From Daejeonella sp. H1SJ63 (GTDB lineage Bacteria; Bacteroidota; Bacteroidia; Sphingobacteriales; Sphingobacteriaceae), in assembly GCF_029360775.1 (NCBI RefSeq), contig NZ_JARKMZ010000010.1, positions 62,001 through 126,000 of the forward strand: DNA of 64,000 bases, in the 5' to 3' direction. A program made the position numbers and the translations under genes. Below the pieces are notes generated by a model, which saw only the letters and a list, made by a program, of their open reading frames with translations, was not told the origin of the DNA and did no database searches. This document shows positions 6,492 to 61,325 of this stretch, one piece after another (the stretch's first letter is position 1; each line of letters starts with the position of its first letter).

Positions 6492-8558
<2,067 letters not shown>

Positions 8559-8628
8559 TCAGAGTTAAATTTTGTTAGAATAATGAAAATGCGAAAACCG
8601 GATAATTGACGACAGATAACTTACTGAT

Positions 8629-9306
8629 TCAGCTCTCAATTAACTTTGAGTGTATTTCGTCATAAATATCCATATAATTTCCAAGCAGATTATGATGGTA
8701 GTCGTTTAGTATTTTACTGAGTTCAAGAACTTCTTGTTCTGTAAGCGGGTCTGCCCAGATTCTCATGCAAATCTTTTTAAGAGCATACATGATATTGTGG
8801 GTTTCCCGATAACTTTCAAGGTATTGGGAGTGAATGAACTTATCAAAGAAAGTAAAAAAATGATCGGTATCGTCCACTTTGTTCAGTTTCAAAAAGCTTC
8901 TGAGTGCTTCACGGTCTGATTCACGCAGGTGAGTGTAAAAATCATTTGTTCTGACATGCTCCCTGATCAGTAACGTACTGTCGAGCATCAATTCAAGTGC
9001 GATATGTGCTAAAAATGAAGGTCTGACGATCGAATTGTTCAGTGCCGGAGTAATTGCTTTTCGGATTTCTCTGGTATGTTCAATGAAAAAGCCTGAATTA
9101 TGAAAATGCCTGTCAACCTTAAGATGCCTTTTCCAGCCTTCAAGTATAGCTTTTTCGAAACTCTTACCAAACAGATGTTCATTTTTTTCGGGATGAATAT
9201 TCCAGTCTTTACGTGCATTTTTAACCAGATCAGGCAATACTGTGCCCAGAACCAGATGTGGATCTTCGCTATGCCGGTCAAAGTAAAAATGAGACAGGAA
9301 GTTCAT
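8629..9306 (-). CDS. ACP phosphodiesterase (AcpH)-like protein
   Basis: The 225-residue protein starts MNFLSHFYFDRH and has GTVLPDLVKNA, a KVDRHFH histidine motif and a FLAHIALELMLDSTLL segment. These match the general layout of the AcpH/DUF479 family (MNFLAH, a DF segment, HRxID), which removes 4'-phosphopantetheine from acyl carrier protein. Similarity to the E. coli protein is only moderate, so the activity is a family-level guess. It is divergent from tyrS, and the 128-base gap between them should hold both promoters. Confidence 0.6.
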   Translation of the reverse strand: MNFLSHFYFDRHSEDPHLVLGTVLPDLVKNARKDWNIHPEKNEHLFGKSFEKAILEGWKRHLKVDRHFHNSGFFIEHTREIRKAITPALNNSIVRPSFLAHIALELMLDSTLLIREHVRTNDFYTHLRESDREALRSFLKLNKVDDTDHFFTFFDKFIHSQYLESYRETHNIMYALKKICMRIWADPLTEQEVLELSKILNDYHHNLLGNYMDIYDEIHSKLIES

Positions 9307-9401
9307 TTTGTATTTATTGGTTAGTCTTGTCAGGCTGATTTTTAGCGCGACAATTATAAAAATACGAAAATATTTGCCATCAGTGGTTTTATCAATTCTC
9401 T

Positions 9402-9409
9402 TATATTTG
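9402..9409 (+). promoter_or_regulatory. Bacteroidota-type -7 promoter element of tyrS
   Basis: TATATTTG matches the TAnnTTTG -7 consensus and lies 25 bases before the tyrS ATG. No clear -33 TTTG is visible at the usual spacing. Confidence 0.55.
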
Positions 9410-9434
9410 CAATCTTAACGATCCTTGAGATAAA

Positions 9435-10718
9435 ATGAATTTTGTAGAAGAATTACGCTGGCGGGGAATGCTGCATGATATAATGCCCGGTACTGAAGAT
9501 GAGTTGAACAAACAAATGACCTCAGGTTATATCGGGTTTGATCCAACCGCAGACTCTTTGCATGTTGGTCACCTGACCCAGATCATGACATTGATCCACT
9601 TTCAGAGAGCAGGGCATAGACCCGTTGCCCTGGTTGGTGGTGCTACCGGAATGGTTGGTGATCCATCAGGGAAATCAGCAGAACGTAATCTTTTGTCGGA
9701 AGAAATTTTGAATCATAATGTGAAGTGTCTTGAACATCAGCTCAAAAAATTCCTTGATTTTAACTGCGGTGCAAACAGCGCTGAGATGGTAAATAATTAC
9801 GACTGGTTTAAGAATTTTACTTTTCTGGATTTTATTCGCGACGTAGGTAAGCATCTGACTGTCAATTATATGATGGCTAAGGATTCTGTTAAAAAACGTC
9901 TTGAAGGTGATACAGGGATGTCTTTTACAGAATTCAGTTATCAGCTGGTTCAGGGCTATGATTTTTACTATTTATGGAAAGAAAGAAACTGCCAGGTACA
10001 AATGGGAGGTTCTGATCAATGGGGGAATATCGTAACAGGGACCGAACTTATTCGCCGTAAAGCTGCAGGAACTGCTTATGCTATCACTACGCAGTTGATC
10101 AAAAAGGCAGATGGTACCAAGTTCGGTAAAACAGAGAGCGGTGCTGTATGGCTTGATCCGGCGAAAACATCTCCGTATAAATTCTATCAGTTCTGGCTAA
10201 ATACCACTGATTCTGACGCAAAAAGCTGGATCAGGATTTTTACATTAAAATCTCAGCCTGAGATTGAACAGCTTGAGAATGAGCATGATGAAGCTCCGCA
10301 TTTGAGGATACTTCAGAAAGCACTGGCTGAAGAGATTACTATCAGAACGCATTCAGATGATGCATTGCAGACAGCATTGAAAACATCTGAATTCCTGTTT
10401 GGGAACGGTTCGCTTGAATTCCTGCAATCTTTATCTGAAACTGAAATAATGGAAGTATTTGAAGGTTTGCCTCAGTTTAAGATAAGCAAAGATGAATTGG
10501 CGGCCGGCATCACTGCTACTGATCTTCTGGCCGAGAAAACTGCAGTTTTCCCGTCTAAAGGAGAGGCCCGTAAAATGATAACCGGAGGTGGGGTATCAGT
10601 AAATAAAGAAAAGGTGCCTGACCCTGTACAATTATTCAGCTCTGCAAACCTTATCAAGGGGAAATTTCTTGTAGCTCAGAAGGGAAAGAAAAACTACTTT
10701 CTGATCATTGCCGGATAG
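9435..10718 (+). CDS. tyrS: Tyrosyl-tRNA synthetase
   Basis: Charges tRNA-Tyr with tyrosine in the cytoplasm. The protein has 427 residues. The class I HIGH-type motif is HVGH at residues 43-46, the KMSKS-equivalent loop is KFGKTESG, and the tyrosine pocket QGYDFYYL followed by MGGSDQWGN is intact. The C-terminal region (residues 365 onward) is an S4-like RNA-binding domain ([13 protein letters not shown]). A hairpin follows the stop. It is a typical single-copy housekeeping gene. Confidence 0.98.
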
Positions 10719-13386: not shown

Positions 13387-13800
13387 TTAGTTAGTTTTTA
13401 AAGACAGAATGTATTTAACCATTTCTTTTGCATCATCACTGCTTAAAGCGGGGTGTGGTGCCATTGGAATTTCACCCCAGGAACCTGAACCCCCCTGAAT
13501 GATTTTTCCTGCCAGTAAGTCAATATTGGCATCTGTAGCAGGGTATTTGTTTGCTACATCAATATAAGACGGGCCAACAAGCTTGGCATCTACTTTATGG
13601 CAGGTTAAGCAATCGGATGCACCGATCAGTTGTTCACCTTTTGCTGATCCTACAGACGCTACAGCACTTGCTGTTGTATCTGCGGCAGGAGCTGCTGCTA
13701 CTGCTTGTGTGCTGGTATCTTGTGTCTCAGCTGTTTTTTCTCCGCTGTTGCAGGCATAAATAACACTGCAAATACTTAATAGGGCAAATATCTTTTTCAT
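13387..13800 (-). CDS. Lipoprotein cytochrome c (c551/c552-like)
   Basis: Small monoheme electron carrier of 137 residues. An N-terminal signal ends in a lipobox-like VIYAC with Cys17, so it is probably anchored in a membrane by lipid. After an Ala/Thr-rich linker comes the heme site CLTCH (Cys64, Cys67, His68) and an axial-methionine segment IPMAPH with Met113. It closely resembles the cytochrome domain inside the giant protein at 17372-20764 (shared KII-GG-WGE motif). It is the likely electron acceptor for a sugar dehydrogenase of the island. Confidence 0.92.
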   Translation of the reverse strand: MKKIFALLSICSVIYACNSGEKTAETQDTSTQAVAAAPAADTTASAVASVGSAKGEQLIGASDCLTCHKVDAKLVGPSYIDVANKYPATDANIDLLAGKIIQGGSGSWGEIPMAPHPALSSDDAKEMVKYILSLKTN

Positions 13801-13838
13801 TGTATTTAAATTATATGGGGTGAAAATAGTGAATAATA

Positions 13839-14891
13839 TTAAATGCCAATAATTTTACGGTTGAACTCTTCATCACTGCCTCTTCCCGCAAAATCATCAA
13901 ACGCTTTTTCGGTAACTCTGATGATATGATCTTTAATAAATTCAGATCCTTCTTTTGCACCATCTTCGGGATGTTTGATACAGCATTCCCACTCCATTAC
14001 AGCCCAGCCTTTAAAATCATATTGAGTAAGTTTGCTGAATATTTTTTTAAAATCAACTTGCCCGTCGCCCGGCGAACGGTATCTGCCGGCGCGGTCTGCC
14101 CAGCCCTGATAACCCCCAAATGTGCCTTGTTTCCCGGTTGAATTGAATTCTGCGTCTTTTACATGGAATGCCTTGATCCTTTCGTGATAATGGTCAATGT
14201 ACTGAACATAATCAAGGCACTGAAGTACAAAGTGTGATGGGTCATATAATAAACAGGCTCTTGGATGATTATTTACTTTCTCCAGGAACATTTCATAGGT
14301 TACACCATCAAACAGGTCTTCACCAGGATGAATTTCATAACAAACATCTACTCCGTTTTCATCAAAATGGTCAAGAATAGGCATCCATCTTCTGGCAAGT
14401 TCTTTAAATCCTGCATCTACAAGACCTGCTGGTCTTTGCGGCCATGGATGCCAGGTATGCCAAAGTAATGAACCGCTGAATGTTGCATGAGCAGTAAGTC
14501 CCAGATTTTTGGATGCTGTTGCCCCATATTTCAATTGCTGAATAGCCCATTCAGTTCTTGCTTTAGGATTGTTATGAACCGATGCAGGAGCAAATCCGTC
14601 AAAAAGAAGGTCATATGCCGGATTCACAGCAACCAGCTGACCCTGCAGGTGTGTTGATAATTCGGTGATCTCCAGTCCGCAGCTATTAACCAGGCCCTTA
14701 ATTTCATCCGCATAGGTTTTACTTTCTGCAGCTTTTTGCAAGTCAATACAGCGGGGATCCCAGGTTGGGATCTGTACTCCTTCATAGCCAAGGCTTTTAG
14801 CCCATTTACAAATGGATTCCAGGCTGTTGAAAGGCGCTTCATCACCTAAAAACTGAGCCAGGAATATTCCGGGTCCTTTAATTGTTGTCAT
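13839..14891 (-). CDS. Sugar phosphate isomerase/epimerase family protein (xylose isomerase-like TIM barrel)
   Basis: The 350-residue protein lacks a signal peptide and has the metal-binding pattern of the AP endonuclease 2/xylose isomerase-like barrel: Glu in CYEIHPGED, Asp-His in LLYDPSHFV, His in AFHVKDAEF and Glu in AVMEWECC. Family members isomerise or epimerise sugars and keto-sugars. The Gfo/Idh/MocA gene lies 12 bases upstream in the same operon, a pair seen repeatedly in 3-keto-sugar and inositol-like pathways. A role in converting a 3-keto-hexose is an inference from context. Confidence 0.85.
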   Translation of the reverse strand: MTTIKGPGIFLAQFLGDEAPFNSLESICKWAKSLGYEGVQIPTWDPRCIDLQKAAESKTYADEIKGLVNSCGLEITELSTHLQGQLVAVNPAYDLLFDGFAPASVHNNPKARTEWAIQQLKYGATASKNLGLTAHATFSGSLLWHTWHPWPQRPAGLVDAGFKELARRWMPILDHFDENGVDVCYEIHPGEDLFDGVTYEMFLEKVNNHPRACLLYDPSHFVLQCLDYVQYIDHYHERIKAFHVKDAEFNSTGKQGTFGGYQGWADRAGRYRSPGDGQVDFKKIFSKLTQYDFKGWAVMEWECCIKHPEDGAKEGSEFIKDHIIRVTEKAFDDFAGRGSDEEFNRKIIGI

Positions 14892-17371: not shown

Positions 17372-20300
17372 TTATTGAATCTTTGCAGGAACAAATTTTA
17401 ATGTTCTGAGCAGTGGTCTTGGGGTCCCGTTTTTAGGGTCGGCACTGATCAGTAAGTAAAGTGTATGAAGTTTCCCGTCGCTTGTTGCTTTTACCGGAAT
17501 TGACACCGTTTCATGTCCCGGATCTACGCTGACATTACCTGCAGCCACTATCGGGCCTTTTTCTGAATCCAGACGTAATTCCAAAGTGTATTTTGCTGAT
17601 AATGAATATTTTAGATTTGACAGCTCCAGGCTTCCAATTCCGTTCAGGTCAATCTGCTTGAATGTCATCCGGCCTTTGTTTTGTGGGTAAACTAAAAATC
17701 CTGTGGATGTTGAATCTTTCAGATTTATTCCGTTTCTGTCTGTGATTTCTCTGGCATTGAACAAATTACTTCTCAGGTAAACTGATGCTGCTGAAGAAAG
17801 AGGTTTAAGTCCCGGAGCTCCCTGATCAGTATATGCTGCATACAGACTGAATACTGTATTGTCTGATTCTATAATTCCAGAAGATGGTGTGATTCTGCCC
17901 TGCATAGGTAATGAAGCTTTGTTCACTGCTTTATTTTCGAGTGAAAGTACCCACTGGGTAATCTTTTTTGCATCGTCTTCACTCATGGTGGAATGAGCAG
18001 GCATGGCAACTTCGCCCCATACACCACCACCACCTTTGATAATCTTTGCAGACAGATAGCTCAGTGCTGAAGCGTCTTTCTGATATTTTGCTGAGACCTG
18101 GGTAAAAGCCGGACCTATTGATTTGGTATTGGTCTGATGGCATGACTGGCAATCAGATTTAAGCATTAAAGCTTGTCCTGACTGAGCTGCAGTAACTTCC
18201 TGATGACCAAGAGATGCTCCTGCAAAATCTGATCCCTTAGTATAGTTAGTAGAAACAAATACCGTGCTTTTGTTTACCGCTGCTCCCTGATCTGCTACCA
18301 ATACCTGATAGTCAACAGCTTTGCCGGGGAAATAGAAGCTGCGGTTACCCTGTATCTGAATAGTAACTTTAGGTCTTGCATTTCCGGCTACCACCTGAAC
18401 GGGGCTGCTGCTGGAACTTGCCATCTGCTTATCTGTAACCTTTACACTTACCTGATATTCTCCAGCCTTTGTATAGATGTACTCAATGGATGGGCTTTTA
18501 GTTGTCTTTTTGATGCCATTGCCCAAATCCCAGATATAGGTCAACTCATCCCTGTCATAATCTTCTGCATTTACTTTTGCCTGCAATTTGAAAGGAAGAA
18601 TCCCTGTGGTATTGTTAATAATGAGTTCATTGATCTTGGGCGGACGATTACCTGCCATATAATCAATCCTTGCTATTCCGGCATCCGGATTTTTTGAGAA
18701 CCATCCTTTTCCATATTCAAGAATATAGATTCTTCCATCAGGTCCCAGTTCCATATCAACCGGAGCTGCAAAAGACGATGAAGGCATGAATGCTTCCATG
18801 TTATCATAGTCGCCGTTAGGTTTCATACTAACTACCTTGATCCAGTTTCTTATCCATTCGTAAATGAATAATTTATTATTGTAATGATCAGGATAACGGG
18901 TTTCTTTAGGATAAAGCTCACTGTGATATACTGGTCCGGCCATAGCAGTCCGGCCACCCGTACCAACCTGAGGAAATTCTTTAGAGGCGGCATATGGATA
19001 CCAGATGAATGCAGGTTGTACCTGAGGTAACTCCTTTAATCCGGTATTGTTCGGAGAATTATTAACCGGTTTTTTTGGATCAAAAGCTTCAGCACTAATT
19101 CCTGTTTTATAATCGTAGGCCCGGTAAGGGTAGTTATTGCCTACAAAATATGGCCATCCGAAGAAGCCGGCATTACGGGCCTGATTTACCTCATCATAAC
19201 CTCTGGATCCGCGTTCAGGGCTGTCAGCGTTTGCATCCGGACCAACCTCTCCCCAGTAAAGGAATCCTGTTTTGCTGTCAATGGAAATACGGTATGGATT
19301 CCGGTTCCCCATTACATAGATTTCAGGTTTGGTATGAGGAGTCTTAGGAGGGAAGAGGTTTCCTGAAGGTATTTCATAGCTGCCATCGGGCTTCACGCGA
19401 ATACGCATGATTTTTCCGCGAAGGTCATTGGTGTTACCTGATGATCTGCCGGCATCATATTGTTCAAGGCCTGGACGGTTATCCATCGGTCCATATCCTT
19501 TATTAACAAATTGTTGTTTAGGGACATCAAACGGAGTTGAATTATCGCCCGTTGAAACGTACAGTAACCCATCCGGGCCAAAAGCAATTGAACCACCGGT
19601 ATGACAGCAAATTTCTCTTTGAGAGTAGAACTGTAAAACAACTTTTTCTGATGAGTTGTCCAATTTGTCGTTCACAAATTTAAATCGTGATAATCTGTTT
19701 ACTGAGGTGTCTTTAGGACTATAAAAGATATAGACATAATTGTTGTTTTTATAATCAGGATCAGCTGCAACACCTAAAACTCCTTCCTCTGCATTGGCTC
19801 CTGCAACGGAAGTTTGAAAATAGGCATTCAAGGCCCCAACCTGAGTAATACTTTTAGTACTTTCCTTATAAAGCATGATTTCACCACGTCTTTGAACCAA
19901 TAAAATATCCAGATTAGGAAGTATGGCCATTTCAGTAGGTTCAAATAAAGTTCCGGTGGTCAGAACTGTTTTAACAAAGCGGTTTTCTTCGGGCACTTTC
20001 AGAGTTTTAGCCTTCGAATAATTTAAAGCCGTATTATTGCCCATAGCATATTTTATTCCGCCAAGGAGATGTTTCAGGTAGGCTGCATCAGTGTATGATT
20101 CATTGGTATGGCCCATACCGGTATAGAACGCCCTTCCCCCGTCGAACTCATGATACCATGCAATAGGATGCGGGTTTCCATTGGCTCCACCCTCATAAGA
20201 TTTCTCGTCAAGATTAATTAAAACCTTAACTTCAGGATTAAGTTCTTTGTAATTATACCACTCATCTTTACGTAACCATTTTTCTGAGAGATGTTTGGTT

Positions 20301-20764
20301 GATGAATGGCTGCGGTCAAGTACATCCAGACTTGCATCCTGTATTTTAGGGTGGCTCAGGAAGTATCCTCCGGCAAGCTTTCCATACCATGCCCAGTCGT
20401 ATTCGGTATCTGCTGCTGCGTGAATGCCTGCATAACCCCCGCCTGCCTGAATATATCGTTCAAAGCTGGTCTGCTGAGGACTGTTTAAAACATTTCCGGT
20501 TGTATTCAGAAATACAACTGCTGAGTACTTTTTTAATGAATCTTCATTGAAAAAATTTTCATTTTCAGTGGTATCAACGATGAAACCGTTCTCTTTTCCA
20601 AGTTTTATGAGTGCAGTTTTTCCGGCACTTATTGATTCATGCCTGTAGCCAGCAGTTTTGCTGAATATCAGAATGCGGGGTTTAGCAGTTTGTTCAAAGT
20701 GCTTGAAAGCAAACAGGCTAAGAATAATGATGAATAACGGTAGAAGTAAGGTTCTCTTTGTCAT
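17372..20764 (-). CDS. Multidomain ThuA / sorbosone dehydrogenase-like / PKD / cytochrome c protein
   Basis: A large exported protein of 1130 residues when started at the ATG at 20764, which gives a signal peptide (LLLPLFIIILSLFAF). The 55-codon extension upstream overlaps a strong inverted repeat and is not protein-like. In order: a ThuA-like trehalose-utilisation domain (about 30-245), a six-bladed glucose/sorbosone dehydrogenase-type propeller (about 270-680, with GPDGLLYVSTGDN and GPDGRIYILEYG), a PKD domain, a monoheme cytochrome c domain (CQSCH, axial Met in VAMPAH), and a C-terminal beta domain that may bind carbohydrate. It can be read as a sugar dehydrogenase with a built-in electron outlet. 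PQQ synthesis genes are not in the window. Catalysis is unproven. Confidence 0.88.
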   Translation of the reverse strand: MTKRTLLLPLFIIILSLFAFKHFEQTAKPRILIFSKTAGYRHESISAGKTALIKLGKENGFIVDTTENENFFNEDSLKKYSAVVFLNTTGNVLNSPQQTSFERYIQAGGGYAGIHAAADTEYDWAWYGKLAGGYFLSHPKIQDASLDVLDRSHSSTKHLSEKWLRKDEWYNYKELNPEVKVLINLDEKSYEGGANGNPHPIAWYHEFDGGRAFYTGMGHTNESYTDAAYLKHLLGGIKYAMGNNTALNYSKAKTLKVPEENRFVKTVLTTGTLFEPTEMAILPNLDILLVQRRGEIMLYKESTKSITQVGALNAYFQTSVAGANAEEGVLGVAADPDYKNNNYVYIFYSPKDTSVNRLSRFKFVNDKLDNSSEKVVLQFYSQREICCHTGGSIAFGPDGLLYVSTGDNSTPFDVPKQQFVNKGYGPMDNRPGLEQYDAGRSSGNTNDLRGKIMRIRVKPDGSYEIPSGNLFPPKTPHTKPEIYVMGNRNPYRISIDSKTGFLYWGEVGPDANADSPERGSRGYDEVNQARNAGFFGWPYFVGNNYPYRAYDYKTGISAEAFDPKKPVNNSPNNTGLKELPQVQPAFIWYPYAASKEFPQVGTGGRTAMAGPVYHSELYPKETRYPDHYNNKLFIYEWIRNWIKVVSMKPNGDYDNMEAFMPSSSFAAPVDMELGPDGRIYILEYGKGWFSKNPDAGIARIDYMAGNRPPKINELIINNTTGILPFKLQAKVNAEDYDRDELTYIWDLGNGIKKTTKSPSIEYIYTKAGEYQVSVKVTDKQMASSSSSPVQVVAGNARPKVTIQIQGNRSFYFPGKAVDYQVLVADQGAAVNKSTVFVSTNYTKGSDFAGASLGHQEVTAAQSGQALMLKSDCQSCHQTNTKSIGPAFTQVSAKYQKDASALSYLSAKIIKGGGGVWGEVAMPAHSTMSEDDAKKITQWVLSLENKAVNKASLPMQGRITPSSGIIESDNTVFSLYAAYTDQGAPGLKPLSSAASVYLRSNLFNAREITDRNGINLKDSTSTGFLVYPQNKGRMTFKQIDLNGIGSLELSNLKYSLSAKYTLELRLDSEKGPIVAAGNVSVDPGHETVSIPVKATSDGKLHTLYLLISADPKNGTPRPLLRTLKFVPAKIQ

Positions 20765-20906
20765 TTTATGTATTTGGTTAATAATTCTGCGGATTATCAG
20801 AATGTTTTTTTTGTTAAAGATAGATTGCAAACGGGCAGGTTTAACATATGTCAATGATCCTTTTGGTATGTAAAAAATATCAGTAATGAAATTTAATAGA
20901 GTATGA

Positions 20907-20942
20907 TTATTGAAAATAAAAATATACATTTATTTTCAATAA
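20907..20942. promoter_or_regulatory. Perfect AT-rich inverted repeat in the divergent control region
   Basis: TTATTGAAAATAAA (20907-20920) and TTTATTTTCAATAA (20929-20942) are exact complements with an 8-base spacer. The site lies between the two divergent arms of the sugar-oxidation island, 143 bases from one start and 114 from the other. It is a good candidate operator. No regulator gene is adjacent. Confidence 0.55.
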
Positions 20943-54880: not shown

Positions 54881-55543
54881 ATGGATTTATTAAGCCAGAT
54901 AAAATTTCTGATCCGTAAGGAAATCATGCTGGAATGGCGTTCGAAATATGCCTTTAATGGCATTCTTCTCTATGTAGTTTCAACTGTATTTGTTTGTTAT
55001 CTGGCTTTCCGCGAGATCAGCAGTCCGCCAACCTGGAATGCCCTTTTCTGGATTATTATGCTGTTTGCATCGGTCAATGCAATTACTAAAAGTTTTATTC
55101 AGGAAAGCAGGGGCAGACAGCTTTATTATTATACCATTACTAGTCCGCAGGCCATTATTATTTCCAAAATCATTTATAATATTCTTCTGATGCTATTGCT
55201 TTCAGTCATAGCACTGGGATTTTACACTTTGGTGTTCAAAAATCCTTTGGGAGACCCGGCTTTTTATTTACTTTCCGTTTTGCTGGGCAGTATCAGTTTT
55301 GCTTCGGTGTTTACGATGATATCCGGAATTGCATCCAAGGCAAGTAATGGGGGAGCCCTGATGGCAATTCTGAGCTTTCCTGTAATTATTCCTTTGCTTG
55401 TAGTTTTAATTAAACTTTCAAAAAATGCGATGGATGGCCTCGACAGGTCGGTATCTTATGACGAGATAGGGGTTCTGCTGGCTATTAATGTAATAGTAGT
55501 AACAACTTCATTATTACTATTTCCTTATTTATGGAGGGATTAG
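54881..55543 (+). CDS. ccmB: Heme exporter protein CcmB
   Basis: Inner-membrane part of the CcmAB ABC module that releases heme-loaded CcmE in cytochrome c maturation. The protein has 220 residues, six hydrophobic segments, and the family features IRKEIMLEWRSKYAFNG at the start and SFIQESRGRQLYYYTITSPQ in the first loop. No ccmA ATPase gene is next to it. A 195-base gap separates it from ccmC, which has its own promoter element. Confidence 0.93.
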   Translation: MDLLSQIKFLIRKEIMLEWRSKYAFNGILLYVVSTVFVCYLAFREISSPPTWNALFWIIMLFASVNAITKSFIQESRGRQLYYYTITSPQAIIISKIIYNILLMLLLSVIALGFYTLVFKNPLGDPAFYLLSVLLGSISFASVFTMISGIASKASNGGALMAILSFPVIIPLLVVLIKLSKNAMDGLDRSVSYDEIGVLLAINVIVVTTSLLLFPYLWRD

Positions 55544-55709: not shown

Positions 55710-55746
55710 TACCTTTGGCATGACTAATCTGTACTCATATGACTAA
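55710..55746 (+). promoter_or_regulatory. ccmC promoter element and overlapping short upstream frame
   Basis: TACCTTTG at 55710-55717 is a perfect -7 element, with TTTG at 55689-55692 as a possible -33. An 8-codon frame (MTNLYSYD) starts at 55720, two bases after the element, and its stop (55744-55746) overlaps the ccmC start (55739) out of frame. It could couple or limit ccmC translation. Confidence 0.45.
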
Positions 55747-56404
55747 AAACTGGTGGAAAATTCTGGCCACAGTTCTTGTGCTCTTTTCTATAATTGCAGG
55801 GTTTTTATTTCATGTTCCTGAAAAGCCGATTCTTAACGAAACTATACGTAATATTCACTTTCATGTGCCCATGTGGTTTTCAATGATCGTAACACTTACG
55901 GTTTCTTTTGTTTACAGTATCCGATATCTGAGATCTTCAAGTGAGAATGATGATCTGATGGCTATAGAAAGCGCTAATGTTGGAATTATTTTTGGTGTGT
56001 TGGGCCTGATTACCGGAGCTGTCTGGGCAAAATTTACCTGGGGCGAAGCATGGAGCAATGATCCGAAACAAAACAGTGCAGCCATTGCTTTATTGGTTTA
56101 TCTGGCTTATTTAGTTTTGAGAAATGCCCTTGAAGAAGAACAGAAAAGAGGCAGAATTTCTGCGGTTTACAATATTTTTGCATTTCCGATCATGGTGGTA
56201 TTATTGTTCATATTACCCCGAATGACTGATTCTTTGCATCCCGGAAACGGAGGTAACCCGGGCTTTAATACCAAAGATATGGCACCCGAATTAAGACCGG
56301 TATTTTATCCTGCTGTACTTGGGTGGATCCTGATCAGTGTTTGGATCACCACTCTGAGATACCGCATACGTAAATTGGAGAACCAGATTAATGAAGAGAA
56401 TTGA
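55739..56404 (+). CDS. ccmC: Cytochrome c biogenesis protein CcmC
   Basis: Heme-handling membrane protein that loads heme onto CcmE. The protein has 221 residues and six hydrophobic segments. The tryptophan-rich periplasmic motif reads TWGEAWSNDPKQN, the Bacteroidota form of WWD, with histidines in RNIHFHVPMW and DSLHPG as likely heme ligands. ccmD follows 79 bases later. A short upstream frame overlaps the start. Confidence 0.93.
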   Translation: MTKNWWKILATVLVLFSIIAGFLFHVPEKPILNETIRNIHFHVPMWFSMIVTLTVSFVYSIRYLRSSSENDDLMAIESANVGIIFGVLGLITGAVWAKFTWGEAWSNDPKQNSAAIALLVYLAYLVLRNALEEEQKRGRISAVYNIFAFPIMVVLLFILPRMTDSLHPGNGGNPGFNTKDMAPELRPVFYPAVLGWILISVWITTLRYRIRKLENQINEEN

Positions 56405-56483: not shown

Positions 56484-56699
56484 ATGAAAAACCTAATCCT
56501 AACTATTTGCCTGATTCTTTCTTTTTCAGCTATCGCATTTGCACAAAGCACAGGTGGTGTTGATATGGCAACCGAACTCAGAAGTTCCGGGAAAATATAT
56601 GTGGTAGTAGCGGTTATTGCAGTTATTTTCATCGGAATAGCTATTTATCTTTTCAGTATTGATAATCGTCTGAAAAAAATTGAAAAGCAAAAACGGTAA
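56484..56699 (+). CDS. ccmD: CcmD family protein
   Basis: Small membrane protein of 71 residues: signal-like N-terminus (LILSFSAIAFAQ), a short periplasmic part, one transmembrane helix (VVVAVIAVIFIGIAIYLF) and a basic cytoplasmic tail (NRLKKIEKQKR). The size, topology and place after ccmC identify it as the CcmD analogue, which stabilises the CcmC-CcmE complex. Confidence 0.85.
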   Translation: MKNLILTICLILSFSAIAFAQSTGGVDMATELRSSGKIYVVVAVIAVIFIGIAIYLFSIDNRLKKIEKQKR

Positions 56700-56848: not shown

Positions 56849-58285
56849 ATGGCTAAGTCTATAGACGCAGCGCACTCAGAAACTTCGTTTTTTGGTGACG
56901 TTTGCCAGTTCTTTGATCATGCGGCACAGTTTACCTCTCATCCTGAGGGATTACTTGACCAGATCAAATCCTGTAATAGTGTTTATCGTTTCCGTTTCCC
57001 GATCCGTCGTGGTAATGGTTTTGAAGTAATTGATGCCTGGAGAGTTGAGCATTCTCATCACAAATCTCCGACAAAGGGGGGTATCCGTTACAGTGAAATG
57101 GTTAATGAAGATGAGGTGATGGCTTTGGCCGCTTTAATGACCTATAAGTGCGCCATCGTAAATGTTCCTTTTGGTGGTGCTAAGGGTGGTATTAAGATCA
57201 ATTCGAAAGATTACACCATATCAGAGCTGGAAAATATTACCAGAAGATATACGGTAGAGCTGATCAAGAAGAATTTTATCGGACCGGCAATTGATGTTCC
57301 TGCACCTGATTATGGTTCAGGTGAACGTGAGATGAGCTGGATTGCAGATACCTATCAGACCATGAACCCCGGGCAGCTTGATGCTTTGGGCTGTGTTACC
57401 GGAAAACCAATCGCACTTCATGGTATTGCCGGACGTAAAGAAGCAACAGGACGTGGAGTAGCAATTGCTGTTCGCGAATGTGTTGATATTGCCGAAGACA
57501 TGAAGAAGCTTGGATTAACTCCGGGCTTATCGGGTAAACGTGTTATTGTTCAGGGACTTGGAAATGTGGGCTATCATACCATTAAATTTCTGACTGAGTT
57601 TGGGGCAACTGTTGTGGGTATCTGTGAATATGAAGGTGCAATCTATAATTCGAATGGATTAAGTCTTGATGAGGTATTTAATCACCGTAAATCTACAGGT
57701 TCCATTCTTGGTTTCTCAGGCGCTCAGAAAGAGTTTAAGAATACAGCAGAAGGTTTGGAGCAGGATTGTGATATCTTAGTTCCGGCAGCCCTTGAGAATC
57801 AGATTACAATGAATAATGTTGCGAATATCAAAGCTAAAATCATTGCAGAAGCAGCTAATGGCCCCACAACTCCTGATGCTGCTGCTTTCCTGATAAAAAG
57901 AGGTTGTATATTGATCCCGGATATGTATTGTAATGCAGGCGGGGTAACTGTTTCTTATTTTGAATGGTTGAAAAACCTTTCGCATGTGGCTTTCGGTCGC
58001 ATGGATAAACGCTACGAGGAAAATGCAAATCTGAATCTGGTGAATGTGGTTGAGAAGATCACAGGAGTTTCTCTTGATTCGGCACAAAGAAGTATGATCA
58101 TCAAAGGTGCTTCTGAGCTCGAACTCGTTAATTCGGGTCTTGAAGATACCATGATCCGTTCTTATCATGAAATACGTGATGTGCAGATGAATAATCCTAA
58201 AATTGATGGATTAAGAACTGCAGCTTTTGTGAGTTCGATTGATAAGGTTGCCGTTTCCTATATGAATATGGGGATCTGGCCATAA
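56849..58285 (+). CDS. gdhA: Glutamate dehydrogenase (Glu/Leu/Phe/Val family)
   Basis: Interconverts glutamate and 2-oxoglutarate with ammonia. The protein has 478 residues. The catalytic lysine region is [33 protein letters not shown] holds the catalytic Asp, and the nucleotide loop is [11 protein letters not shown]. Cofactor choice cannot be set from sequence. The gene sits between ccmD and ccmE and ends with its own strong terminator, so it is not part of a ccm transcript. Confidence 0.94.
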
Positions 58286-58447: not shown

Positions 58448-58858
58448 ATGAAGAAAAGTTCCATCGCAGGTATAGTCATCATCGCATTGGCGATTGGTAT
58501 TATTATCAGCACTTATGCTGACTCCAGTACTTATGGCTCATTTACTGATGCTAAAGAATCTGAAACAGAACTGCATGTTGTAGGACAGTTGAATAAGCAA
58601 AAAGAACTTCATTATAATCCTCAGCAGGATGCAAACTACTTTGCATTTTACATGAAGGATAATCAGGGAAAAGAATGTAAAGTCGTTTTCAATGGTTCTA
58701 AGCCACAGGATTTTGAGCGTTCAGAACAAATTGTACTTACCGGTAAAATGATTGGCAATGAATTTCATGCTTCAAAGATTTTGATGAAATGCCCTTCCAA
58801 ATACACTAAAGACGAAGTAGAAGTTACAGAAGTTTCAGCCTCTACAGCCAAAATCTAA
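58448..58858 (+). CDS. ccmE: Cytochrome c maturation heme chaperone CcmE, CxxxY variant
   Basis: Periplasmic heme chaperone of 136 residues with one N-terminal membrane anchor (GIVIIALAIGIIISTY) and an OB-type beta domain. The heme-binding site, HxxxY in classical CcmE, reads KCPSKY here: Cys115 and Tyr119. The Cys form is known from archaea and some bacteria, where CcmH is absent. The start gives the anchor directly. ccmF follows by seven bases. Confidence 0.93.
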   Translation: MKKSSIAGIVIIALAIGIIISTYADSSTYGSFTDAKESETELHVVGQLNKQKELHYNPQQDANYFAFYMKDNQGKECKVVFNGSKPQDFERSEQIVLTGKMIGNEFHASKILMKCPSKYTKDEVEVTEVSASTAKI

Positions 58859-58865
58859 ATTCTAA

Positions 58866-61325
58866 ATGGACATACAATACATTGGAGAAAACCTTCTTCC
58901 GGGGAAGTTAGGGCAGTTCTTCGTCATACTATCATTTTGTACGGCAGTGCTTTCAACCATTGCCTATTTTTTTGCAACCCGTGCAGGTTTGTCAAAAGAC
59001 CCTCTGATTAATCAGGAATCGGCCAGCTGGAAGCGTATTGCACGACTAGCATACAGTCTGAATCTTTTTGCTGTTGTTGGTATAGGTTCCTGTCTGTACT
59101 ATATCATTTATAATCATTTGTTTGAGTACAATTATGCATGGGCTCACTCATCCAAAATTCTACCGGTCTATTATATTATTTCATCTTTCTGGGAAGGGCA
59201 GGAGGGAAGTTTCTGGCTTTGGATGTTCTGGCAGGCTGTTTTAGGATTCGTTGTTCTGCGCAGAGGTAAAACCTGGGAAAATTCGGTAATGACTACGATT
59301 ATGCTTTCGCAGGCATTTATTGCATCCATGCTCTTAGGGGTTGAAATCTTCGGATTCAGAGTTGGAAGCTCACCTTTTATCTTATTGAGAGATGCGATGC
59401 AGGGTCCGATATTTCAAAGAGGAGATTATTTAAGTCTGGTTACGGATGGTAATGGATTGAATCCATTATTGCAGAACTACTGGATGGTGATACATCCGCC
59501 AACTTTATTCCTGGGATTTGCTTCGATGATCGTGCCTTTTGCTTATGCAATTGGGGGATTATGGGAAAAGAGATATTCCGATTGGATAAAGCCGGCTATG
59601 CCATGGACCCTTTTTGCGGTAATGATTCTGGGTACCGGGATTATCATGGGCTCATTCTGGGCTTATGAAGCTCTGAATTTCGGGGGCTTCTGGGCATGGG
59701 ACCCGGTTGAAAATGCTTCCATCATTCCATGGCTGACGCTGATTGCAGCGGTTCACGTTATGATTGCCTACAAGAATACCGGACATTCATATTTTACAGC
59801 AACATTTCTGGTTCTGATCAGTTTTGTACTGGTTCTATATGCTTCATTCCTTACCCGGAGCGGTATTTTGGGCGAGACCTCTGTGCATGCCTTTACTGAT
59901 CTGGGTATGTTCTGGCAACTGGTATTTTATGTACTTGTATTCCTTTTTCTGGCTATTATTATGCTGGTGGTCAGATGGAAAGAATTGCCGATTACCAGGA
60001 AAGATGAAGAAACCTATTCGCGTGAGTTCTGGTTGTTTATCGGGGCTTTGGTATTGTCAATTGCCTGTTTGCAGATTCTGGCTACAACTTCAGTTCCTGT
60101 ATTTAATGCCATGTTCGGAACTGAAATTGCACCGCCGCCAAATGTTATTCAGCATTACAATAAGTGGCAGGTTCCATTTGCAGTAGTGATTGCTTTCGTT
60201 TCTGCATTCTCTCAGTTCTTAAAATATAAGAATACCGATGCCAAGAAATTCTTTATCAGCATTTCGGTATCGCTGATCATGTCGGTGTTTATCACAGCTG
60301 CAGCAGTTTATGTGATGAACGTTTACTCCAACGTAATGTACATCATCCTGACTTTTGCTTCTGTATTCTCAATTCTGGCCAATGCCAGAATTCTGGGTGA
60401 AGCATTTAAAGGTAAATGGAAACTGGCAGGTTCTGCAATTGCTCATATCGGTTTTGCTTTATTGCTTGTAGGAGCCCTGGTTGCTGCTGCTACAAACAAG
60501 GTAATTTCTATCAATAATACAGGGATTGGTTTTGGAGATGAGTTTGACAAGAACAACAACCCGCGCGAAAATATCATTCTTTACAAAGATGAGCCTGTAA
60601 AGATGGATCGCTATACAGTTACCTATTTAGGAGATTCAACAGAAGGAGTAAATACTTATTATAGAATTAACTACCGTGTGATTGATGAAAAATCGGGCAA
60701 GGAAAAGGAGAATTTTACGCTTTATCCGAATGCTCAGCAGAATGCTAAGATGCGTCAGATCATAGCATCTCCGGATACAAGGCATTACCTGTTCCACGAT
60801 GTTTATACCCATGTTAGCAGTGTGCCTCTTAAAGATGAAGATCACGAGGAACATGAAGGGCATTCTGATGATGAGAATTACGAAAAACCGGTAACCTATG
60901 AAGTTAATGTTGGCGATACTGTACGCTTCAGGGAAGGATATATTTTAGTTAAGGGTATTAACCGGAACGCTAAAGTTCAGAATATCCCATTAGGTGAAAG
61001 AGATATTGCCATAGGTTTGCAGCTGGAGGTAAACTCTGAGGGCAAGATATTCCCGTCAGAGCCGGTTTATCTTTTGAAAGACGGTTCCAAATTTGACTTT
61101 GGGAAGAAGGTAGATGAGAAAGGCCTGAAACTCAGATTTACCAATGTTTTCCCTGATAAGGATAAGCTTGAGCTGATGGTTTATCAGAAACCTAAAGCAG
61201 AGAAGGATTGGGTTGTGCTGAAAGCTATTGAATTCCCTTATATCAATTTGTTCTGGGGAGGGACCATTATTATGGTTATCGGATTTATCCTTTCCATTTT
61301 CCGGAGAAACAAGGAAATTAAGTAG
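58866..61325 (+). CDS. ccmF: Cytochrome c heme lyase CcmF
   Basis: Large membrane protein of 819 residues that joins heme to apocytochrome c. The WWD motif is GGFWAWDPVENASIIPW; further histidine-bearing loops (MVIHPPTLFLGF, SVHAFTDLG) are present. About 14 hydrophobic segments form the first 530 residues, then a periplasmic domain with a His/Glu-rich run (EDHEEHEGHSDDE) and a final helix ending in a basic tail. It follows ccmE by seven bases. Confidence 0.94.
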   Translation: MDIQYIGENLLPGKLGQFFVILSFCTAVLSTIAYFFATRAGLSKDPLINQESASWKRIARLAYSLNLFAVVGIGSCLYYIIYNHLFEYNYAWAHSSKILPVYYIISSFWEGQEGSFWLWMFWQAVLGFVVLRRGKTWENSVMTTIMLSQAFIASMLLGVEIFGFRVGSSPFILLRDAMQGPIFQRGDYLSLVTDGNGLNPLLQNYWMVIHPPTLFLGFASMIVPFAYAIGGLWEKRYSDWIKPAMPWTLFAVMILGTGIIMGSFWAYEALNFGGFWAWDPVENASIIPWLTLIAAVHVMIAYKNTGHSYFTATFLVLISFVLVLYASFLTRSGILGETSVHAFTDLGMFWQLVFYVLVFLFLAIIMLVVRWKELPITRKDEETYSREFWLFIGALVLSIACLQILATTSVPVFNAMFGTEIAPPPNVIQHYNKWQVPFAVVIAFVSAFSQFLKYKNTDAKKFFISISVSLIMSVFITAAAVYVMNVYSNVMYIILTFASVFSILANARILGEAFKGKWKLAGSAIAHIGFALLLVGALVAAATNKVISINNTGIGFGDEFDKNNNPRENIILYKDEPVKMDRYTVTYLGDSTEGVNTYYRINYRVIDEKSGKEKENFTLYPNAQQNAKMRQIIASPDTRHYLFHDVYTHVSSVPLKDEDHEEHEGHSDDENYEKPVTYEVNVGDTVRFREGYILVKGINRNAKVQNIPLGERDIAIGLQLEVNSEGKIFPSEPVYLLKDGSKFDFGKKVDEKGLKLRFTNVFPDKDKLELMVYQKPKAEKDWVVLKAIEFPYINLFWGGTIIMVIGFILSIFRRNKEIK

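Follow-up and report, generated by a model that had tools for sequence, protein, structure and literature searches.

A probable System I* cytochrome c maturation gene set with a cysteine-type CcmE in Daejeonella sp. H1SJ63

The window, a 64,000-nucleotide stretch of DNA from Daejeonella sp. H1SJ63, carries ccmB, ccmC, ccmD, ccmE and ccmF on its plus strand, and the positions and profile scores of these genes are collected in Table 1. The first-pass annotation had listed ccmB, ccmC, ccmD and ccmF as the companions of ccmE, an assignment upheld by Pfam matches above the cut-off; the ccmB of the window is also the only PF03379 match in the genome. Against the NCBI models, CcmE, CcmF, CcmC and CcmB all score far below the cut-offs, so automatic annotation may under-call such proteins. 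The gene that separates ccmD from ccmE, which resembles glutamate dehydrogenase and was named by eye, has a very similar counterpart in the same interval of a relative (locus L062).

Table 1. Features of the ccm gene set of Daejeonella sp. H1SJ63 (positions in the window, except for the last row, which is given by genome, contig and position)
Feature	Position	Strand	Description
ccmB	54881..55543	+	220 aa; membrane subunit of heme-handling ABC complex; Pfam CcmB 47.0 bits, cut-off 24.9
ccmC	55739..56404	+	221 aa; WWD-family heme-handling protein; Pfam Cytochrom_C_asm 84.2 bits; NCBIfam ccmC 73.3 bits, below cut-off of 186
ccmD (CcmD_alt)	56484..56699	+	71 aa; Pfam PF20077 75.2 bits; TIGR04391 28.5 bits, cut-off 24
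glutamate-dehydrogenase-like gene	56849..58285	+	named by eye; between ccmD and ccmE
ccmE	58448..58858	+	136 aa; OB-fold heme chaperone with N-terminal membrane anchor; Pfam CcmE PF03100 52.1 bits, cut-off 24.6
CPSKY motif, Cys115 to Tyr119	58790..58804	+	read from sequence; HxxxY position of His-type CcmE
ccmF	58866..61325	+	819 aa; heme lyase; Pfam match
ccmF segment holding the insert, aa 650-785	60813..61220	+	136 aa; mostly strands in the model; residues 659-666 with pLDDT < 50
probable ccmA	G000:C37:48981-49598	-	on a contig other than that of the remaining ccm genes; phylum profile, signature, tree

The ccmE reading frame (58448-58858, plus strand; 136 aa) includes the stretch ILMKCPSKYTKDE. 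Near the C-terminus of the protein, Cys115-PSK-Tyr119 had been proposed to stand in place of His-xxx-Tyr, and this was confirmed by the translation of the frame, by the Pfam CcmE match and by the codons read directly from the DNA, TGC at 58790-58792 for Cys115 and TAC at 58802-58804 for Tyr119. All five residues of the motif are invariant in alignments of 16 and of 32 CcmE proteins. The AlphaFold2 model (pLDDT 84.9) consists of an N-terminal helix and beta strands, and its comparison with the PDB placed CcmE chains at ranks 1, 3, 4, 16 and 17, with other OB folds interspersed; 8ce8 was the top match, followed by 1lm0, 1j6q, 1sr3 and the CxxxY domain of Desulfovibrio vulgaris CcmE (2kct). The last of these was also the best PDB match by sequence, a weak one (E 0.022). 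Among named CcmE matches, the closest (88-90%) come from three Daejeonella records and from a MAG that bears the label Sphingobacterium thalpophilum, and a search with CcmE against plasmids returned no match.

PF03100 places CcmE in 264 of the 392 phylum genomes and in 205 of the 247 class genomes, two samples that overlap. CcmB (PF03379) reaches the same total in the phylum (264/392), and a loss of CcmB in the phylum was rejected on the strength of these equal counts; by eye, CcmE occurs alone in G162, G212, G237 and G348, and CcmB alone in G056, G095, G253 and G370. The gene immediately after ccmE is ccmF at 90 of 120 ccmE loci, and a narrow motif scan found a thioredoxin-like WCxxC frame in none (0/120); a similarly narrow scan for [WFY]CxxC was negative for the open reading frames listed for the window.

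The motif was read at 190 loci from 174 distinct genomes of the phylum, comprising the listed matches and 30 weak-scoring ones chosen on purpose; for G062 and G294, which have two CcmE matches each, the second lies outside the 174-genome count. Cys occupied the position in 174 of 174 genomes (173 with CPSKY, one with CPSRY) and His in none, which argues that CPSKY is not a product of chance; the suggestion that the Cys type is general in this group was thus borne out in every genome read. A scan of contigs with KCPSKY in its search pattern was discarded as unfit for distinguishing His from Cys, and its 80 loci, all CPSKY, were kept outside the 174.

Additional CcmE-like genes were observed at several loci. 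A Mucilaginibacter MAG (L126) carries tandem CcmE genes at 7995-8408 and 8412-8822 (both +), each with CPSKY. CcmE-like paralogues close to ccmE were found in L090 (7632-8012, -), L099 (3617-3994, -), L031 (441-800, -), L093 (7551-8105, -), L108 (7481-8311, +) and L087 (7665-8066, -), those of L090, L099 and L087 being located between ccmE and ccmF. These paralogues end just short of the position of the CPSKY tail and share a GH[VT]HG...Y[FV]H stretch instead; they are possibly a second CcmE devoid of the heme-binding tail.

The genome (G000; 3.65 Mb in 56 contigs, rated 100% complete) contains a single CcmE match, which is of the Cys type and lacks the HxxxY of canonical System I. The absence of a CcmH gene nearby, as the first-pass annotation had it, extends to the whole genome, where both PF03918 and a profile of divergent CcmH-like domains gave zero matches. 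Accordingly, the two findings named beforehand as counting against its reading, a second CcmE of the His type and a CcmH encoded elsewhere, were both absent. A CcsA-type protein was likewise not detected, CcmF and CcmC being the sole PF01578 (Cytochrom_C_asm) matches genome-wide. Cytochrome c domains of family PF13442 are matched 30 times, 25 of them above the cut-off, and substrates for the ccm set probably exist in the genome. Within the window, two CXXCH open reading frames, at 13390-13854 (-) and 17375-20929 (-), overlap PF13442 matches below and above the cut-off, respectively; both are likely substrates of the ccm set.

It had been reported correctly that ccmA is absent from the window. 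The broader proposition that CcmA is missing was rejected, since a profile of the phylum singles out a gene on contig C37 and a tree places it with ccmB-linked proteins. The profile was built from eleven CcmA-like proteins of the phylum, ten of which adjoin ccmB, and scored the C37 gene at 172.7 bits, compared with 118.1 for the next ABC protein. The gene carries the signature FSSGMKQR. In a tree of the eleven profile proteins, two outside proteins and 12 ABC proteins of the genome (the C37 gene and 11 others, a part of its 37-38 ABC matches), it groups with ccmB-linked CcmA on a long branch and away from the 11 others, with support of 92/88, below the tool's mark of 95/80. With TIGR01189 it obtains 77.7 bits, 14th of 38 matches; no protein of the genome exceeds the cut-off of that model (131.6 bits), the best reaching 107.3. 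Its neighbours, named by eye, are lpxA-like and efp-like genes (locus L199, 1501-2151, -). CcmA is therefore probably present in the genome but unlinked, which makes the set CcmABCDEF rather than CcmBCDEF.

CcmF was compared across Bacteroidota on 97 frames, obtained from 115 loci with a profile match by removing 18 frames under 400 bits, mostly CcmC-sized and including a CcmF cut by a contig end (L114); the remaining five of the 120 loci were matchless. An alignment of 50 Bacteroidota CcmF shows no variation at H210, H297, H341 and H527 and little or none in the WWD stretch (about 273-283). The four histidines are complete in 96 of the 97 frames, the last having a gap at H210, and they also occur in the control CcmF. 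From their alignment to these controls and their order along the chain, they would correspond to P-His1/2 and TM-His1/2. The roles of P-His1/2 and TM-His1/2 in CcmF are addressed in PMC10746174. The AlphaFold2 model of CcmF (pLDDT 90.2) superimposes on Thermus CcmF 6zmq (Z 36.9; 572 of 589 residues aligned).

Bacteroidota CcmF exceeds the controls by about 150 residues: counted from the first Met, the median is 810 aa (range 587-1038 in the 97 frames, some of which may be partial), against 643-666 aa in five CcmF from plasmids. The extra length comes from an insert of about 115 residues, mostly beta, in the periplasmic part, after the conserved DxY segment and ahead of the last membrane helix. 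Measured as the counterpart of residues 650-785, this region has 121-144 aa in 12 CcmF of Bacteroidota, as against 12-17 aa in the five controls. At least 100 aa are present in 96 of the 97 frames, and the insert occurs in 0 of 5 controls, a comparison that covers four Proteobacteria and Cytobacillus firmus, with Deltaproteobacterial and archaeal CcmF outside it. Searched as part of the whole CcmF model, the fold of the insert gave only weak matches, to Gc domains of viral glycoproteins (Z 7.3 and 5.5). The exceptional frame belongs to L111 (G014; 7885-9948, +), which has 21 aa in the segment, no insert, and adjoins a CPSKY CcmE. A literature search yielded no description of the insert that was recognised as such, a weak negative.

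System I* is reportedly known in print since Allen et al. 2006. In the account given by PMC3601427, CcmH belongs to the canonical System I set, and System I* is marked by a CxxxY CcmE, with CPSKY as the commonest variant motif, and by a CcmH that is dispensable and often absent, about one third of the systems having it. The first-pass annotation had equated a Cys variant without CcmH with System I*, and the description in PMC3601427 supports this: a CxxxY CcmE, no CcmH, and CcmB, CcmC and CcmF are all found in Daejeonella sp. H1SJ63. Compared with Desulfovibrio and other bacteria with System I*, the Bacteroidota differ in showing the Cys type in every phylum genome read and in the CcmF insert (Desulfovibrio CcmF lying outside the comparison), and Daejeonella sp. 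H1SJ63 differs in its unlinked ccmA. PMC3601427 names Desulfovibrio, Deltaproteobacteria, Chloroflexi and Firmicutes as holders of System I*, and the stem 'Bacteroid' has no occurrence in its text; additionally, no paper on Ccm maturation in Bacteroidota was recognised by title or abstract in the literature search, outside of which most subscription papers fall.

Other known systems share parts of this arrangement. Methanosarcina acetivorans, with CcmABCEF, likewise has a CXXXY CcmE and no CcmH/I, whereas archaeal sets are without CcmD and the CcmF of M. acetivorans is split (PMC9084895); the window encodes both a CcmD_alt and an undivided, long CcmF. Plasmid clusters of canonical System I in Rhizobium and Vitreoscilla encode homologues of CcmE and CcmF, the latter with the same four histidines, but their CcmE is of the HxxxY type (HDETY, HDENY) and their CcmF lacks the insert. 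The ccm cluster of Cytobacillus firmus plasmid p1 resembles that of the window in a CPSKY CcmE followed by CcmF, and differs in a gene annotated as CcmH and in a CcmF of 660 aa without the insert. From these sequence comparisons, the system of the window is best called a member of System I*, and the CcmF insert would mark the form of this phylum as a variant.

We consider it very probable that a complete System I* (CcmABCDEF) matures cytochromes c in this organism without CcmH, and the set appears to be the only route of c-type maturation in the cell. By homology, CcmC and CcmD would act on the outer side of the inner membrane and load heme onto Cys115 of CcmE, presumably through a heme-Cys bond, and CcmA, as the likely partner of CcmB, would help to drive the release of holo-CcmE. 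Heme would then pass from CcmE to the WWD site of CcmF, which, working without CcmH, would join it to the CXXCH of apocytochromes. There are precedents for such a pathway: the ccm operon of Desulfovibrio, expressed in E. coli, produces holocytochromes without CcmH or CcmG, its Cys-type CcmE binding heme covalently (PMC3601427), and Methanosarcina needs C120 of CcmE (PMC9084895). The H130C variant of E. coli CcmE binds heme and does not hand it on (PMC9084895), which implies that the other steps of the pathway have to be adapted to Cys.

Whether Cys115 acts as a covalent carrier may be questioned on the basis of the CxxxY CcmE of D. vulgaris, which is reported to bind ferric heme non-covalently via Cys127 (PMC3884852). 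A pathway that is otherwise the same, with Cys115 as axial ligand of a non-covalently held heme, is nonetheless unlikely, as the CcmE of D. desulfuricans binds heme covalently (PMC3601427) and heme-stained CcmE was undetected in the C120A mutant of Methanosarcina (PMC9084895).

A minority of phylum genomes encode proteins that resemble CcmH. PF03918 is matched in 12 of 392 genomes, in five of them above the family cut-off, and ten of the 12, including all five, carry divergent Cys-rich CcmH-like proteins with the pattern CxCxxC...CxC or similar; in eight of these ten genomes, two tandem domains follow a zinc ribbon. The domains, carried by genomes of families f17, f35 and f15, lie around 1501-1740 in loci L046-L054, L056 and L058. 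The other two genomes, G076 and G355, both of the class of the window, match only the rear part of PF03918, and no Cys-rich CcmH-like frame was printed for them. A profile of the CcmH-like domains reaches PDB CcmH 2kw0 at E 0.001, and the existence of such proteins lends some weight to the idea that an unrelated or highly diverged protein, encoded at another place, has taken over from CcmH, in which case CcmF would not work alone. The same profile, however, finds only 14 of 392 phylum genomes, one of them weakly and partially, and nothing in the genome of the window, which leaves a hidden substitute for CcmH improbable in comparison with a CcmF that functions without it.

That the ccm set is a relic, with cytochromes c either absent or matured by a different system, might be read into the unlinked ccmA, the glutamate-dehydrogenase-like gene inside the cluster and the low scores of CcmE, CcmF, CcmC and CcmB against NCBI models, but is very hard to reconcile with motifs conserved phylum-wide, many matches to cytochrome c domains, the lack of a CcsA-type protein (PF01578) and, as regards CcmF alone, the naming of this protein in a comparison of proteomes of Melioribacter roseus (Ignavibacteriae; PMC5492636).

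With a System I* that functions without CcmH as the favoured explanation, the insert becomes a candidate for part of the role of CcmH, by helping apocytochrome or holo-CcmE to dock at the WWD site, and CcmF would then be a one-protein cytochrome c synthase; we regard this proposal as speculative and rather doubtful. The distribution of the insert does not support a strict replacement of CcmH, because G014 has neither (a Cys-type CcmE, no CcmH match and an insert-less CcmF) and G188 (L081) has both, a CcmH-like protein being present and the insert kept. No periplasmic column of the 50-CcmF alignment contains Cys in at least 10 rows, and a shared CcmH-like thiol is thus not seen in the periplasmic part of CcmF. 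If the proposal were true, the insert would be a compensatory feature, of a kind for which bioinformatics had given no evidence according to PMC3601427.

Why heme is carried on His in some organisms and on Cys in others, and how CcmF manages without CcmH, are matters still to be settled in the field of heme attachment. Should a phylum rich in cultured members rely on the Cys form without CcmH, both would become testable beyond archaea and sulfate reducers, and the CcmF insert would offer a concrete, deletable target.
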